DNA of 33,742 nt. Source: Actinomycetota bacterium (lineage in GTDB: Bacteria; Actinomycetota; Thermoleophilia; Solirubrobacterales; 70-9). This document shows, one piece after another, positions 11,093 to 33,617 of this stretch. A program made the position numbers and the translations under genes. Within the stretch, counting starts at the first letter, position 1. Each line of letters starts with the position of its first letter. The notes below the pieces were generated by a model. That model saw only the letters and a program-made list of their open reading frames with translations. It did not search any database and had not been told where the DNA came from. The DNA lies in NCBI GenBank assembly GCA_018268675.1, contig JAFDWB010000052.1, forward strand, positions 1 to 33,742, read 5' to 3'.

Positions 11093-12424
11093 ATGGCCGA
11101 GATGCCGCAGACGCGGTACGCGGGCAGCGGTGACATCAGCATCGCCTACCAGGTGTTGGGCGAGGTCCCGCGGGACATCGTCCTCGCGCTCCCTTGGGTC
11201 TCGAACCTCGACCTGCAGTGGGAGAGCCCGCTGCTCGCCCACTTCTTCCGCCGGCTCGGTGCCTTCGCCCGGGTGATCGTCTTCGACCGCCGCGGCGTCG
11301 GCCTCTCCGACCCGGTCGACGGGGTCGCGACGCTCGAGGAGCGGATGGACGACATCCGCGCGGTGATGGACGCGGCCGGGTCCGAGCGGGCGGCGCTGCT
11401 CGGCATGTCGGAGGGCGCGACGGCCTGCATGCTGTTCGCCGCGACCTACCCGGAGCGGACCTCTGCACTGCTCCTCTGGGGCGCGATGGCGCGCTCGACC
11501 GAGGACGACGACTACCCCTGGGCGGCGTCAAAGGAGGCGCTGATCGAGGCCGGGGTGGAGCTGATCGGCCCGATGTGGGGACAGGGGGCGACGATCGACA
11601 TCTTCTCGCCGAGCCTCGCCGAGGACGAGGGGGCGCGCCGCTACACCGCCCGGATCGAGCGCGGCGCCGGCAGCCCGCTGCGGGTCTGGCAGATCCTGAA
11701 GATGTTCCTCGAAACCGACGTGCGCGACGCGCTGCCGTTGATCCAGGCGCCGACGCTGGTGATGCACCGCCGCCACGACCACGCGGTCAATGTCCGCGCC
11801 TCGCGCTGGCTCGCCACGCAGATCGCCGGCAGCCGCTACGTCGAGTTCGAGGGGGTCGATCACTTCCCCTGGGTCGGCGACGCCGAGGAGCCGCTGGCGA
11901 CGATCGAGGAGTTCCTCACCGGCGTGCGTCCCGCGGTGCGGCCCGAGCGGGTGCTGGCGACGGTCGTCTTCACCGACATCGTCGGCTCGACCGAGCGCGC
12001 CACCGAGGTCGGCGACCAGCGCTGGCGCGAGCTGCTCGATCGCCAACAGGCGCTGGTCCGCGAGCGGATCGCCCGCCACGAGGGTCGCGAGATCAAGACC
12101 ACCGGCGACGGCTTCCTCGTCACCTTCGACGGCCCGAGCCGCGCCGCGCGCTTCGCCCGCTCGGTGGTGCTCGACGCGCCGACGATCGGGATCGAGATCC
12201 GGGCCGGCGCCCACACCGGCGAGGTCGAGCTGATCGGCGAGGACATCGGCGGCATCGCCGTCCACGTCGCCTCGCGCATCTGCGGTCTCGCGGGCGGCGG
12301 CCAGGTGCTCGTCTCGCGGACCGTGCAGGACCTGACCGTCGGCTCGGGCCTCCCCTTCGAGCCCTGGGGCAGGCGCGAGCTGAAGGGCGTCGACGGCGAG
12401 TGGGAGCTCTACGAGGTTCGCTGA
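11093..12424 (+). CDS. Alpha/beta hydrolase-class III adenylate cyclase fusion
   Basis: The 443-residue protein joins an alpha/beta hydrolase (residues about 1-280) to a class III nucleotidyl cyclase domain (about 288-443). This is the same architecture as mycobacterial Rv1900c. The hydrolase has the oxyanion/strand region 'VFDRRGVGLSDP', nucleophile Ser106 in GMSEG, acid Asp in 'HRRHDHAV' and His257 in 'GVDHFPW', so it looks catalytically complete. The cyclase has metal-binding Asp295 (VVFTDIVGST) and Asp339 (TTGDG), Lys335 and Arg395, but the canonical transition-state Asn is His391 ('AVHVASRI'). Activity may therefore be altered, or specificity may be relaxed. No membrane segment is present, so it is cytosolic. 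The hydrolase may sense a small ester or act on its own substrate; this is inference. Confidence 0.9.
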   Translation: MAEMPQTRYAGSGDISIAYQVLGEVPRDIVLALPWVSNLDLQWESPLLAHFFRRLGAFARVIVFDRRGVGLSDPVDGVATLEERMDDIRAVMDAAGSERAALLGMSEGATACMLFAATYPERTSALLLWGAMARSTEDDDYPWAASKEALIEAGVELIGPMWGQGATIDIFSPSLAEDEGARRYTARIERGAGSPLRVWQILKMFLETDVRDALPLIQAPTLVMHRRHDHAVNVRASRWLATQIAGSRYVEFEGVDHFPWVGDAEEPLATIEEFLTGVRPAVRPERVLATVVFTDIVGSTERATEVGDQRWRELLDRQQALVRERIARHEGREIKTTGDGFLVTFDGPSRAARFARSVVLDAPTIGIEIRAGAHTGEVELIGEDIGGIAVHVASRICGLAGGGQVLVSRTVQDLTVGSGLPFEPWGRRELKGVDGEWELYEVR

Positions 12425-18454: not shown

Positions 18455-21400
18455 ATGATGCCGTCTCGGCCCTCCTGCCTGATGCCTCACCGGGTCGTTG
18501 GCCTGGTAGCGACCGTGGTCGTGGTGTTCCTGGTCATCGTGCCTGTGGCGCGGGCTGAACTCACCGTCAACGTCGGCATCACCGGAACCGGCCACGGTAC
18601 GGTCACGAACACCGGCGAAGCCGAAGGGGCGATCGGCTGCAGTGGACCACCCGCGACGCCGAACCCGCCTGGCGCCTGTTCTGCCGCGTTCGGATTCGGT
18701 TCTACCTTCCACGCCGGCCCTGACCCTGGCTCGAACTTCAACGGATGGACCGTGATCCGTAACGGAGAACCCCAACCCGAAACCTGTGCCAACGCCGCGG
18801 AACCCTGCACTGTCTTCGCGTTCTCAAACGCGAGTTACGAAATCACTGCGGCCTTCGTGGTGCTCCTGCCTGCCCCCACGGTCACGATCCAAGGGCCGAC
18901 CGGCATCGGCTCCGAAGGGGCAACTTTCCAGGGCGCCGTCAACGCCAACGGAAACGACGCCAGATGGCGCTTCGAATACCGTCCGACCGGTTCTTCGTCC
19001 TGGGAGAAGGCACCGATCCCCGACGGCGATGCCGGAGCCGGCGAAGCGGCCGAACCGGTCGAAGCGACGGTGCAGGGGCTCGAACCGAACACCGAATACG
19101 AAGTTCGCCTCTGGTCCGGCAACGGGACCTCGTCCGCGACTTCCGCCATCGAAACCTTCAGCACCCATGCGCTACCGCCCGGTGTGAGCACCGGGGGCGC
19201 CTTCTCGATCTCCGATACGACCGCGACCCTGACCGCCACGGTCGACCCCCATCACGCCACGCTGACCGATTGCCACTTCGAGTATGGAACCGGCGAGGGC
19301 TACGGCCAGATCGCGTCCTGTTCGCCTGGCCCGGCGGGCATCACGAACCCGGACGAGGTCCAGCAGATCGCGGTCCGGGCGACGCACGGGACCTTCGCCC
19401 TGTCATTTCTCGGGGTCCAGACCGGCCCGATGCCCTTCAATGCCCCGGCGTCCACCGTCCAGGCCGAACTGCGCACGCTTTCCTCGATAGGCGCTGCGGG
19501 CGTCAGCGTGATCGGCGGGCCAGGCGACACCAGCGGCTCCCATCCCTACCTGGTGACCTTTGAAGGAGCGCTTGGCGACCGCAACGTCGAGGCACTGGTG
19601 GCGAGCGAAGAACATATGACCACCGGCGAAACCGTCGTTGTCAGCACCGTCTCGCCCGGTGGCTTTCCGGTCCAGGTGACCGCCGACGTCTCCGGGCTGA
19701 GCCCGGAAAGCGTCTACCACTACCGGGTCGTCACCGCAAATGCGTGCGGCGGGGGATGCGGCGGCACCGTGGGGGCGGATCGGTCGTTCGAAACCCGGCC
19801 CCCTGTCCGATTCCCCGCGCGCCATTACGAGCTGGTCAGTGCTGCTGACACCAACGGTGAAGAAGCCATCCCCAATCTGTCCTCCGTCGACGGCGAACGC
19901 TTCTCGTACTCAAGCTTCTTGCCAAGCCCGCCCGACCCGGTCAGCGGGTTCTTCTCCACCTACGTAGCCTCGCGCAATCCTGATGGCTCATGGACGCAGA
20001 AGGGGGTTGAAGCACCTCCCGGCCCCGGTGAACAGGACCTTGGCACCGCCAGCATCTTTTTCTCCGCGGACCTGAGCAAGGCCGCGGTCAGCACCGACAA
20101 CGCACTCGATCCTGCCGATCGCAACGGTGCCTACGACACCTACTATCTGGACCGGCCGGAAGGTCGACACTTTGCCTGGGTGTCGCGAAACACCGCGATC
20201 GAGGGACCGCAGACCGAAGGTGGGGACGCCAAACCGGTATATGTCACCCCCGACGGGGCCGATGTCCTCCTCGAATCCCGACGCGCCTTGCTGCCGTCCG
20301 CGACCGCCGGTGTCAAGGAACTCTACGAGTGGGAAAGCGATACGCATGCGCTCGCTCTTGTCAGCCGCGTTCCTCCGCCGGGCTCCCGACGCTGCGACGA
20401 CACCACCGATATGCCCGCCTGCCTTCCCTCCGCGGCCGAATCGGTCCTGGGGTCCGGTGTCGAAGCTGGTGGGGCAGGAAGCGTTCTCGCCCCCGGGACC
20501 AACTATGGAGCGGTCTCCCCGGACGGGCGCCGTGTCGTGTTCGAGGTCGTCGGCTCCCAACCAGGCGCTCGGCGCATCTTCGAGCGTATCGACGGTGAAC
20601 GGACCGTGGAGGTCTCCGCCGGCCAGGGGGTCACCCCGCCGATCGCGGAACCTCAGAATGTGAACTATGCGGGTACGGCCGAAGGCGGCGCGGTCGTGTT
20701 TTTCACCAGCTCGTCGGCGTTGACGCCGGACTCGTCGGCGGAAACCGGCGGCGGAACGTCGGCGGGATGTGGGCCTGGCGAATCCAGCAGTTGCGACCTC
20801 TATGGGTACGGGCTTGAAGGCGACACGCTGGTGGATCTGACGCCTTCGTCGGGGGGCGGCGGTGTCGAGCGTGTCTACGCCATCTCGAACGACGGCACCC
20901 GTGTCTACTTCAGCTCGAGCAAGCGCCTCGATCAGACCGGTCACCTGACCGAAGAAGGGAGTGGGCTCCAGGGGTCCCCCGGGGGGCCCAACCTCTACCT
21001 CGCCGAAGTTCACGGATCGAGCGCCGTCCTCACCTTCATCGCGACGATCGACCCGACCGAGTCCAGTCCGGCCTGGAACGCCGGCCTCTATCGTCCGCAA
21101 GCGCAGCGCGAGGTTGCTGCGACCCCCGACGGCTCGCTGCTCGCCTTCCGTGACCGGCTCGCGGCGGTTCCCGGTCGCTCCACGGGCGGGCGCCCACAGG
21201 TCTTCGTCTACGACGCTCTACGCAAGGAATTGAGCTGTGCCTCCTGCCTTGGCGGAGGCTCGCTGCCCGCTGCGGCCAACCTCGTCGCCGCGAAAGGCTA
21301 TGGCGAAGTAGAACCAGGCGAGGGCCTGGCGGGAGACAAGGCCACCGAAGGCGCCGGCCCCCATCCCCGCAGTGTCAGCACGGACGGTGCCGTCTTCTTC

Positions 21401-29429: not shown

Positions 29430-30716
29430 TCACGGGCCGAGGCCGACGATCTGCAGGTTGAGCGGCAGCTCCGCGTGCCGCGGGCCGCGCGGCGACCCCG
29501 CCAGTCGCGCCGCCGCCCCGCCGACGAAGAACTGCGGGAAGTCGGCGAGCGTCCCTTCGGCGGTGAAGGACGAGAAGCGGTACGGGATCCCTTCCGACCC
29601 GAGCGGCGAGGGGCCGTCCATGAGCTGGAAGTGGAGGTGGGGCGCGTTCGAGTTGCCGGAGTTGCCGAGCAGGCCGAGCACCTGGCCCGGACGCACGCGC
29701 TCGCCCACCTTGACCCGGACGCTCCCCGGCACCAGGTGCGCGTAGAACGCATACCGTCCGCCGCCCATCGCGACCACCACGTGGTTGCCGCCCGCGTCGC
29801 CCGCGGTGATCGGCGGCAGGGCGAAGTTGATCGGTCCGTCGGGCAGCCGGTCGACCACCCCGACCACCTTGCCCGCGGTCGCCGAGAGCACTTCGTCGCC
29901 GTAGAACGGGTAGCTCGCGAGTTGGTCGGCCGGCCCTTCGGTCAGCTGCCCGGCAGGCGTCATCTGGACGAAGTCGATCGCGTAGCGCTCGCCGGCGTGG
30001 AGGCCGCCGTCGATCGCCAGCAGACTGCGCCGGTGCGACGTGTTTTGTGCGCAGCAGCCGTTGATCACGACCCAGCCGGGGCCGCGCAGCGGCGGCGCGA
30101 CGATCACCGCCGGGCGCTTGCGGACCGCGGTCGGCGCCGCCGTGAACCGGCTCAGTTCGACCGCGGCGGGCGGCCCGGGGGAGAGGACGATCTCGTGGTC
30201 GAGCCTGCGGGGGATCGGGGCCCCGGCCGGGTAGCTGACGTCCATCAGCACCTTGGCGGTGCCGCCGGGCTGGATCGTCGTCCGCGGCGTCCGTTCGTTG
30301 ACGACGCCGAACGGTTCCATCATTTCTTCGAGCTCCGCCCCGGCGAGCGTCTCGACCGGCTTCCCGGCCGCCCTGGCGATGATCCGACGCACCGTCACCG
30401 GGCCCGGGGGAAAGGCCGAGTCGTTGGCGAGCACGAGCTCGTAGGCGAGGTGCATCCGCCCGTCGCCGCCCCGCACCGGTTCGGGGGCGTGCAGCACGCG
30501 GGCGCTGAGCGGCGTGAAGTGGTCGGCGGCGATGGCCCTCCCCGGCGCCGCGATCAGCGCGAGCGCCAGCAACGCCGCCCCAAGGATCGAGATCTTTGAG
30601 CGGTGGACGATGGCGGCATCGTAGAGGCGCGTGGAGCGGTCCGGACGAGCGTCCGGCCCGCTCCCTGGACGATCGGCCGAGGCCGCCGGCAGGCATGCGC
30701 AAGAATGAGGCCGCAT
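29430..30716 (-). CDS. Exported M23-type (LytM-like) peptidase-fold protein
   Basis: The conventional ATG is at 30716, but the signal peptide reads ISILGAALLALALIAAPGRA, beginning near 30611, so the true start is probably there (see findings). Residues after cleavage include a beta-rich N-terminal domain ('HLAYELVLANDSAFPPGPVT'). The M23/LytM domain follows: 'ERYAIDFVQ' (metal Asp), 'GNHVVVAMGGGRYAFYAHLV' (His), 'VGERVRPGQVLGLLGNSGNS' and 'APHLHFQLM' (HxH). The first His of the usual HxGxD motif is replaced by Arg, as in a divergent M23 subgroup, so the metal site may differ. Such proteins cut or bind peptidoglycan outside the membrane. The divergent PPOX gene starts at 30715. Confidence 0.75.
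   Translation of the reverse strand: MRPHSCACLPAASADRPGSGPDARPDRSTRLYDAAIVHRSKISILGAALLALALIAAPGRAIAADHFTPLSARVLHAPEPVRGGDGRMHLAYELVLANDSAFPPGPVTVRRIIARAAGKPVETLAGAELEEMMEPFGVVNERTPRTTIQPGGTAKVLMDVSYPAGAPIPRRLDHEIVLSPGPPAAVELSRFTAAPTAVRKRPAVIVAPPLRGPGWVVINGCCAQNTSHRRSLLAIDGGLHAGERYAIDFVQMTPAGQLTEGPADQLASYPFYGDEVLSATAGKVVGVVDRLPDGPINFALPPITAGDAGGNHVVVAMGGGRYAFYAHLVPGSVRVKVGERVRPGQVLGLLGNSGNSNAPHLHFQLMDGPSPLGSEGIPYRFSSFTAEGTLADFPQFFVGGAAARLAGSPRGPRHAELPLNLQIVGLGP
30618..30623 (-). promoter_or_regulatory. Candidate leaderless -10 box TACGAT before M23 gene
   Basis: On the minus strand TACGAT (30623-30618) is followed by 6 nt and then ATC at 30611-30609. That ATC is in frame with the exported peptidase-like protein and just before its signal peptide. 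Confidence 0.35.
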
Positions 30717-31113
30717 GAGCACCGAGTTCCCCGCCTCCCACCGCGACCTGCTCGACGCGAAGTTCGCGACGCTGGCGACGCTCGGGAAGGACGGCGGGCC
30801 GCAGCTGACCGAGGTCTGGTTCCTCTTCGAGGACGGCGAGTTGAAGGTCTCGCTGAACGACTCGCGGCTGAAGACCAAGAACCTGGTGGCGCGGCCGCAG
30901 TGCAGCCTCTTCATCCTCGACCTGGAGAACCCGTTCCGCTACCTGGACGTACGGGGGACCGCCCGGATCGAGCCCGACGACGACTACGCGTTCGCGGACC
31001 GCGTCGGTGCCAGGTACGGCGCCGATCTGCGCGATCACGACGGCCCTGGCGTCAAGCGGGTCGTGCTGACGATCGAGCCGACCAACGTCTTCGCCGTCGA
31101 CATGGGCGCCTGA
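30715..31113 (+). CDS. PPOX-class F420/flavin-dependent oxidoreductase
   Basis: ATG 30715 gives 132 residues with the split-barrel fold of pyridoxamine 5'-phosphate oxidase-like proteins: 'KFATLATLGKDGGPQLTEVW' (first two strands), 'LKVSLNDSRLKTKNLVARPQ' (cofactor-binding Arg/Lys-Asn loop), 'CSLFILDLENPFRYLDVRGT' and 'VVLTIEPTNVFAVD'. The single-domain length and RxKxxNL loop fit the F420-dependent TIGR03618-like subfamily, though FMN cannot be excluded. It would act in the cytosol on small organic substrates as a dimer. It is followed 8 bp later by the exported hydrolase gene, probably one transcript. Confidence 0.85.
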   Translation: MSTEFPASHRDLLDAKFATLATLGKDGGPQLTEVWFLFEDGELKVSLNDSRLKTKNLVARPQCSLFILDLENPFRYLDVRGTARIEPDDDYAFADRVGARYGADLRDHDGPGVKRVVLTIEPTNVFAVDMGA

Positions 31114-32177: not shown

Positions 32178-33617
32178 GTGGTTGCTCACGATCGCTTCTT
32201 CATCGACGGAGATTGGCGAATCGCCGACGATCCCGGGCGCACGATCGATGTGATCGAGAGCCGCAACGGGCGGCCGATGGCGACCGTGGCGGCGGCCAAC
32301 CACGCCGATGTCGCCGCCGCCGTCGAGGCCGCCGCGCGGGCCTTCCCCGCCTGGGTCGGGACGCCGGTGGCCGAGCGGGCCGCGATCCTCGCCCGGCTCG
32401 GAGACGCGCTCGCCCGCCGGGCCGAGGAGCTCGCCGCGCTCGAGGCGCGCGAGATCGGGACCCCGCTGACCGCGAACCGGCGCTTCCACGTCGACGCGAC
32501 CGCCGACTACTTCCGTCGGCTCGGCGCCTACGCGGACGCCGTGGAGTGGGAGATGCGGCTCCCGGAGTCGCGCAGCATCCGGGTTCCGCTCGGCCCGGTC
32601 GGCCTGATCACTCCCTGGAACAACCCGCTGCTGATCACCGCGATGAAGGCGGGGTCGGCGCTGGTCGCCGGCTCGACGGCGGTGATGAAGATCAGCGAGC
32701 TCGCCCCGCTCGGGCTCTTCCACCTCGCCGACGCGGCGAACGAGGCCGGGCTGCCTCCCGGCGCGCTCAACGTCCTCTCCGGACACGGCGCCGAGGCGGG
32801 CGAGGCGCTCGTCGCCCACCCCGCGATCGCCGCCGTCTCCTTCACCGGGTCGATCGCCGCCGCGCGCCGCGTCGCCTCGCTCGCCGGCGAGCGAATCAAG
32901 CCGGTCACGCTCGAGCTGGGGGGGAAGTCGGCGAGCATCCTGCTCGACGATGCCGATTTCCACCCGGCGATCGAGCGATCGGTCGAAAGCGCGTTCCACC
33001 ACAACGGTCAGTACTGCCTTGCCACCACGCGGGTGCTCGTCCCCCGCAGCCGCCTCGCCGAGGCCGAGGAGCTGGCGGCGGCCGTTGTCGAGGAGTGGCA
33101 GCCGGGCGACCCGCTGGACGGGTCGACCCGCCTCGGGCCCGTGGTCTCGGCGCGGCACCGCGACCGGGTCGTCGCCTACATCGAGGCCGGCATCGCGGAA
33201 GGCGCGCGGCTCGTGGTCGGTGGGTCCGACCGACCGGCGGGATTCGAGCAGGGGTTCTACGTCCGGCCGACCGTCTTCTCCGAAGTCGACAACGGGATGG
33301 TGGTCGCGCGGGAGGAGCTGTTCGGGCCGATCCAGGTCCTGATCCCCTACCCGGACGGCGACGACGACGCCGCGATCGCGATCGCCAACGACTCCGAGTA
33401 CGGCCTCGGCGGCGCCGTCTGGTCGGCGGATCAGGCGCGGGCCGAACGGGTGGCCGGCGCCATGCACACCGGCAGCATCGAGATCAACGGCGCGATGCTC
33501 GGTCTGGACGCCCCCTGTGGGGGATTCAAGAACTCCGGTTTCGGGCGCGAGAGCGGCCGGGTGGGGGTCGAGGATTTCCTGACCTGGAAGGCTCTGCACG
33601 GGGCCGTGCATGCCTAG
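32178..33617 (+). CDS. NAD(P)-dependent aldehyde dehydrogenase
   Basis: GTG 32178 gives 479 residues, normal for the family. The Rossmann domain and catalytic site are clear: 'VGLITPWNNPLLITAMKAGS' (Asn148 in the oxyanion pocket), 'VSFTGSIAAARRVA' (nucleotide-binding), catalytic base Glu246 in LELGGK, nucleophile Cys280 in 'NGQYCLATTRVL', and 'REELFGPIQVLIPYP' then 'CGGFKNSGFGRESGR' near the end. The Glu-Cys spacing of 34 matches ALDH2. It oxidises an aldehyde to a carboxylate in the cytosol. TTG 32142 would be an alternative start, but it lies within the -35 box. No RBS precedes GTG, consistent with a leaderless mRNA. The IS481 element begins just after the stop. Confidence 0.95.
   Translation: MVAHDRFFIDGDWRIADDPGRTIDVIESRNGRPMATVAAANHADVAAAVEAAARAFPAWVGTPVAERAAILARLGDALARRAEELAALEAREIGTPLTANRRFHVDATADYFRRLGAYADAVEWEMRLPESRSIRVPLGPVGLITPWNNPLLITAMKAGSALVAGSTAVMKISELAPLGLFHLADAANEAGLPPGALNVLSGHGAEAGEALVAHPAIAAVSFTGSIAAARRVASLAGERIKPVTLELGGKSASILLDDADFHPAIERSVESAFHHNGQYCLATTRVLVPRSRLAEAEELAAAVVEEWQPGDPLDGSTRLGPVVSARHRDRVVAYIEAGIAEGARLVVGGSDRPAGFEQGFYVRPTVFSEVDNGMVVAREELFGPIQVLIPYPDGDDDAAIAIANDSEYGLGGAVWSADQARAERVAGAMHTGSIEINGAMLGLDAPCGGFKNSGFGRESGRVGVEDFLTWKALHGAVHA

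Follow-up and report, generated by a model that had tools for sequence, protein, structure and literature searches.

The stretch analyzed here, referred to as the window, comprises positions 1–33,742 of a contig from an uncultured Actinomycetota bacterium (JAFDWB010000052.1). On its minus strand, it carries a gene for an exported M23-like protein, whose coding frame has no standard start codon near its 5′ edge. We propose that this gene is translated from an AUC located at the very 5′ end of its messenger RNA (mRNA). The locus comprises the following features, with the signal peptide boundaries set by eye:

29430..30611, minus strand: exported M23-like protein, coding sequence of 393 codons and a stop (Pfam PF01551 Peptidase_M23, E 2.5e-14)
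30525..30611, minus strand: signal peptide IVHRSKISILGAALLALALIAAPGRAIAA, with the n-region HRSK, a hydrophobic core, and an AIAA end
30609..30611, minus strand: proposed start codon ATC, kept in 4/4 clade orthologues
30612..30617, minus strand: spacer GCCGCC, six bases between the −10 element and the start, predicted to be untranscribed
30618..30623, minus strand: −10-like hexamer TACGAT; TANNNT is enriched 6–9 nt before ATG and GTG in this genome
30714..30716, minus strand: in-frame upstream ATG, rejected as start, overlapping the 5′ end of the divergent gene
30715..31113, plus strand: divergent gene of the PNPOx_N family (Pfam PF01243, E 1.4e-15)

On the minus strand, the start of the gene reads TACGAT-GCCGCC-ATC-GTC-CAC-CGC-TCA-AAG-ATC-TCG-ATC, with the hexamer at 30623–30618, the spacer at 30617–30612, and the ATC at 30611–30609. 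Translation in the ATC frame yields IVHRSKISILGAALLALALIAAPGRAIAADHF, which by eye is a typical signal peptide. The initial annotation had pointed to this hexamer, the six-base distance, and the in-frame ATC ahead of the signal peptide, and the sequence is as it described. Its statement that no ATG, GTG, or TTG occurs in frame between the ATG at 30716 and the signal peptide holds up to the hydrophobic core: the nearest standard codons upstream are this ATG, at −35 codons, and a GTG at −37, and the first one downstream is a TTG at +13 (codon 14), within the hydrophobic core. The 4.2-Mb genome holds four exact matches to TANGAT-N6-ATC (N6 denoting six bases between hexamer and codon). Of these, the window site alone marks the 5′ edge of a coding frame that has no standard start nearby. 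Among the other three, one falls on a 42-codon frame, one on a major facilitator superfamily gene, where GTG occurs at +7 and ATG at +12, and one deep inside a gene. Regarding the encoded protein, the PF01551 match reaches 53.7 bits, compared to a gathering score of 28.7. M23 peptidases bind zinc through the motifs HxxxD and HxH. An HLH is kept in the M23 match (29433–30611, minus strand); inspection of the translation by eye did not reveal an evident first zinc-binding histidine. The encoded protein may therefore be a relative without catalytic activity.

The proposed start codon is conserved among orthologues. Four intact genes of the genus form one clade (support 100/99), comprising the window gene and the genes in L004, L005, and L006, which stem from separate metagenome-assembled genomes and are 77%, 74%, and 69% identical to the window gene, respectively. 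All four share TA[CG]GAT-GCCGC[CG]-ATC-G[TC]C-CAC-CG. In L004 and L005, the −10 element is TAGGAT, and its TAG forms an in-frame stop 12 nt ahead of the ATC, so that upstream codons cannot be the start in these two; in L006, protein conservation upstream of the ATC was not seen. Homologue conservation reaching up to the ATG at 30716, the finding that the initial annotation had named as decisive against its proposal, was thus present in none of the three. The first standard codons downstream do not correspond between the four orthologues (TTG at codon 14, TTG at codon 12, TTG at codon 19, and GTG at codon 18). Outside the clade, a purine-rich stretch precedes the GTG that starts the sister gene L007, paralogues of a second group start with ATG (L008, L019, L020, L021, and L022) or TTG (L002), and family members in another genus have TAGGCT-N6-ATG at the same place (L010, L012, L013, and L023). 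As all clade members have ATC and their relatives carry ordinary starts, the alignments indicate that the AUC arose once and was then retained. The ratio of nonsynonymous to synonymous substitution rates (dN/dS) between orthologues is 0.34–0.67, and intact frames of 392–397 codons are present; the gene is therefore maintained, albeit not tightly. A further copy in genome G039 (L060/L018) is decayed, with the signal peptide missing and the frame broken (L060 2990–3250), and lies beside the same divergent PNPOx gene. Pairing of the upstream region with the anti-Shine–Dalgarno sequence ranges from 0.3 to −5.6 kcal/mol at the four M23 loci and is not conserved. For reference, random 20-mers have a median of −2.8 kcal/mol and a 5% level of −7.9 kcal/mol, and clpX reaches −10.2 kcal/mol. 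Being unremarkable against random 20-mers, the pairing rules out an AUC led by a Shine–Dalgarno site.

The arrangement at the ATC resembles that of ordinary genes in the window, as had been stated in the initial annotation. This applies to ATG starts at 11093 (plus strand, TACGCT), 14146 (minus strand, TAGGCT), and 10671 (minus strand, TAGGAT) with N6, and to a GTG start at 32178 (plus strand, TAGCAT) and an ATG start at 18455 (plus strand, TAGCCT) with N7. We evaluated this geometry in genome samples of 434 kb and then 968 kb, the latter with 828 genes called by a simple codon scorer; all counts given here refer to 968 kb. Among 742 ATG codons near gene starts, TANNNT was found at N6, N7, N8, and N9 in 45, 32, 17, and 22 cases, and among 774 GTG codons near gene starts, at N6, N7, and N8 in 29, 18, and 12 cases. 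All other sense codons gave 2.4 per 1000 at N6, and 1.7–3.9 per 1000 over these distances. TTG was unenriched (1/211 at N6 and 2/211 at N7), as was CTG (3/1100 at N6). That TANNNT is concentrated before ATG and GTG alone indicates that the lineage obeys the actinobacterial rule for leaderless ATG and GTG starts.

With a probability of roughly three in four, we therefore read the M23-like gene as one that gives rise to a leaderless mRNA, which is translated from a 5′-terminal AUC into an exported product. The promoter −10 element TACGAT ends 6 nt before the ATC and would thus yield an mRNA without a leader that begins with AUC. RNA polymerase would initiate at the A of this codon (30611), the predicted transcription start, 7 nt after the −10 element. 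A ribosome would then bind the mRNA 5′ end together with formylmethionyl-tRNA, which would pair with the A and U only. The mismatch at the third base would slow formation of the start complex and limit output, and discrimination by initiation factor 3 (IF3) would perhaps act as the throttle. In this way, the weak AUC codon probably throttles synthesis of a protein that would be exported with a normal signal peptide. The leaderless AUC start put forward in the initial annotation is thus supported by the ATC kept in all four genes and by the closed upstream frame in L004 and L005, and can be extended to two further genes of the genus with a similar design (AUC and AUA), which are described below.

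Other starts are conceivable for the M23-like gene. The window frame is open from 30938 and contains the ATG at 30716, which would add an N-terminal extension of 35 residues ahead of the signal peptide. Such a start is very improbable: it is refuted in L004 and L005 by the in-frame TAG four codons ahead of the ATC, it would bury the signal peptide, and the extension has a coding score of −6 over 30 codons and shares sequence with the beginning of the divergent PNPOx gene, whose start is likewise found upstream in L006. Even slimmer are the chances of a dead gene, as exemplified by the decayed copy in G039, or of a base error with ATG as the true codon, given ATC in four separate assemblies, intact frames, and the dN/dS values mentioned above. 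By the comparison of the orthologues, we consider both the upstream start and the base error, which the initial annotation had listed for checking, as excluded.

A start at a standard codon within the signal peptide, which in the window would be the TTG of codon 14, would result in no export or in a truncated signal. It would delete the conserved HR.K n-region, and the standard codons vary in type and place between the orthologues; from position and n-region, we consider it unlikely. With an mRNA that begins at the ATC or upstream of it, initiation could also occur behind a short untranslated leader at another non-canonical codon, such as the AUC at codon 7 or 9. Both ATC codons are conserved at the DNA level in all four genes, and the first 27 nt (30585–30611, minus strand) are identical at 22–27 of 27 positions. 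However, such a start would strip every positive charge from the n-region, would lack a Shine–Dalgarno site, and would break the geometry fitting ATG and GTG genes, leaving it a small chance. Furthermore, all four genes contain an out-of-frame ATG that overlaps the −10 element (TACG-ATG-CC), because the final GAT of the latter is followed by a G. Its use would require a subsequent frameshift, and a slippery heptamer was not seen by eye. This ATG is a highly doubtful start, as it precedes the point where the RNA is predicted to begin, the frame it sets ends soon in the window and L004, and the sigma factor and ABC genes described below have no overlapping ATG at that place.

To find comparable genes, we conducted a census of N6 sites across the whole genome and then compared orthologues. 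The census covered TAYNNT-N6-AT[AC] and TARNNT-N6-AT[AC], the latter pattern having a stop in frame by design. Most of the 79 sites were outside coding frames or had a standard start nearby. A coding frame without a plausible standard start was found at four of them: besides the window gene, these belong to an ATP-binding cassette (ABC) ATPase, a sigma factor, and an APH-like kinase (C87:72010). The kinase has no orthologue in 11 genomes of the genus and was not counted among the conserved cases. The sigma factor is of the extracytoplasmic function (ECF) type (TIGR02937, 97.6 bits; Sigma70 regions 2 and 4), and its gene shows TAAGTT-CGTCAC-ATC at the proposed start, the TAA closing the frame upstream. 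Of the 11 other genomes of the genus, 10 contain an orthologue. TA[AG]GTT-N6-ATC with an in-frame stop is found at 10/10 loci having the N-terminus, own locus included and L266, which is cut by a contig end, left out. Across these loci, the N6 spacer varies, as do most of codons 2–12. L263 and L264 have a TTG in frame one codon ahead of the ATC, 3 nt past the −10 element, and an ATG or GTG is found at codon 9 in L260 and L263. Among the sigma loci L227 and L257–L265, several share a CGTATTCCG stretch further upstream.

The ABC ATPase is PotA-like (C82:75153), and its gene shows TAACTT-CGCGGG-ATA at the proposed start, where TAA again closes the frame. Eight loci of the genus have TAAC[GT]T at N6 or N7; seven of the eight have ATA, and six of the eight an in-frame TAA. 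The −10 element is one base more distant in L140 and L142, and the eighth locus, L141, has GTA after TAACTT-N6. This count leaves out L143 and L144 from another genus, in which the motif is absent (the aligned triplet in L143 is ACC). In the sampled genes, ATA accounts for 53 of 9,564 Ile codons (0.6%), and it is so scarce that its conservation at the PotA-like start is not a matter of codon usage. As an alternative, the PotA-like gene may start at the AUC or AUU of codon 8; at codon 1 or codon 8, the start codon would be non-standard either way. A few genes that are conserved in the genus and unrelated to each other (M23-like, ECF sigma, and PotA-like) would then start leaderless at AUC, AUA, or GUA, as a selected throttle that is possibly read by IF3. 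We offer this wider picture tentatively and at somewhat less than even odds. For the ECF sigma gene, a role analogous to the repression of sigR in Streptomyces (see below) is a guess by analogy.

Several observations weigh against leaderless starts of this kind. ATC and ATA are unenriched at the leaderless position (2/878 and 2/70 at N6), and a stricter scan gave 0–3 events for each non-RTG codon versus 35 for ATG and 21 for GTG. General leaderless use of ATC, ATA, or CTG is unsupported by these counts, and leaderless AUC and AUA starts are predicted to be rare here, which fits a few selected exceptions and no rule. In the census, TARNNT-N6-ATM was rarer than the reversed control (35 versus 70 sites), and TAYNNT-N6-AT[AC] gave 44 sites versus 43. 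At the M23-like gene, codons 7 and 9 are ATC in all four orthologues just like codon 1, and the first 27 nt exceed the 76–80% identity found across the coding sequence. The conservation from the −10 element to codon 9 may thus be partly of other cause, with the near-palindrome AAGATCTCGATCCTT as a possible operator. At 8 of the 10 sigma loci, an ATG immediately precedes the in-frame stop (ATG-TAR-GTT). A start at this ATG with readthrough of the stop is possible in principle; however, L259 and L261 have no ATG here, and the stop alternates between TAA and TAG. Regarding the literature, only ATG and GTG start leaderless translation in Mycobacterium smegmatis according to reporter and selection work, in which ATC was employed as the presumed negative control (Shell et al. 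2015, PMC4633059). For leaderless mRNA in Escherichia coli, passages of a review state that GUG, UUG, and CUG cannot substitute for AUG (PMC4611024).

Mycobacterial leaderless genes and the genes described here have in common a −10 element directly ahead of the frame, no Shine–Dalgarno site, and a 5′-terminal start, which is predicted in our case. They differ in the start codon, being ATG or GTG in mycobacteria and AUC here (AUA and GUA in the sister cases). IF3 discriminates against non-canonical start codons, as stated in parts of three publications (PMC5472188, PMC4611024, PMC10158994). Excerpts of the first describe sigR of Streptomyces with a GTC start that is repressed via IF3, whereby sigma factor levels stay lower than those of the antisigma factor, and the IF3 gene infC with an AUU start in E. 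coli and an ATC start in Streptomyces (PMC5472188). Like the present genes, sigR has a conserved non-canonical start in an actinobacterium, and one gene here also encodes an ECF-type sigma factor. However, sigR has a leader and a long Shine–Dalgarno site (AGGAGGTG), whereas the genes described here are predicted to have neither. A conserved AUN start is also shared with infC, where it lowers translation; infC is leadered and autoregulated, whereas the M23-like gene is predicted to be leaderless and is unrelated to IF3 by sequence. In our genome, infC was not found by a motif search of the 968-kb sample. Deinococcus, according to parts of one report, has a −10 motif that adjoins open reading frames 6–7 bp ahead (PMC12340547), as is the case here, but belongs to another phylum. 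Non-canonical starts on Shine–Dalgarno-led genes are thus already known, and the new aspect would be a conserved AUC on a predicted leaderless gene, which would be one of three or more such cases in the genus. Full-text literature searches, judged by their listings, turned up no paper on AUC or AUA as conserved starts of leaderless bacterial genes. For D. deserti, non-canonical start codons were reportedly detected by proteomics, and an overlap with the present cases is possible.

If true, conserved AUC and AUA starts on predicted leaderless genes would mean that the ATG/GTG-only rule is not general in actinobacteria. They would also offer a direct test of how the third base of the codon is checked in the 70S or leaderless pathway, and of IF3 action there. 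Gene callers limited to ATG, GTG, and TTG would assign wrong starts to such genes or miss them altogether, a sigma factor among them.

Further genes caught our interest during the analysis. A guanylate-cyclase gene in the window (27382, plus strand) shows TAGCCT-N7-CTG and no ATG, GTG, or TTG over 21 codons, and L148 and L149 keep CTG ACG. It was rejected as a near-cognate start on account of in-frame upstream standard codons in the orthologues (TTG in L148 and GTG in L149). An acyl-CoA ligase (C82:33572; ATA, N8) was rejected as well, being unconserved in three homologues. A galT-like gene (G000:C71) and a mobA-like gene (C93 ~20,200, minus strand), both named by eye, have no standard start near the coding start, and a hemerythrin-like gene (G000:C82 ~199,570, plus strand, in L125) is seemingly split across two frames. 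Regarding tRNAs, 51 loci were found and 30 scanned, revealing three with a CAT anticodon, as expected. Finally, clpX (G000:C91 ~64,730, plus strand, in L206) has no ATG, GTG, or TTG near its start and shows GGAGG, followed after 8 nt by CTG GCA CGT, which looks like a Shine–Dalgarno-led CTG start.
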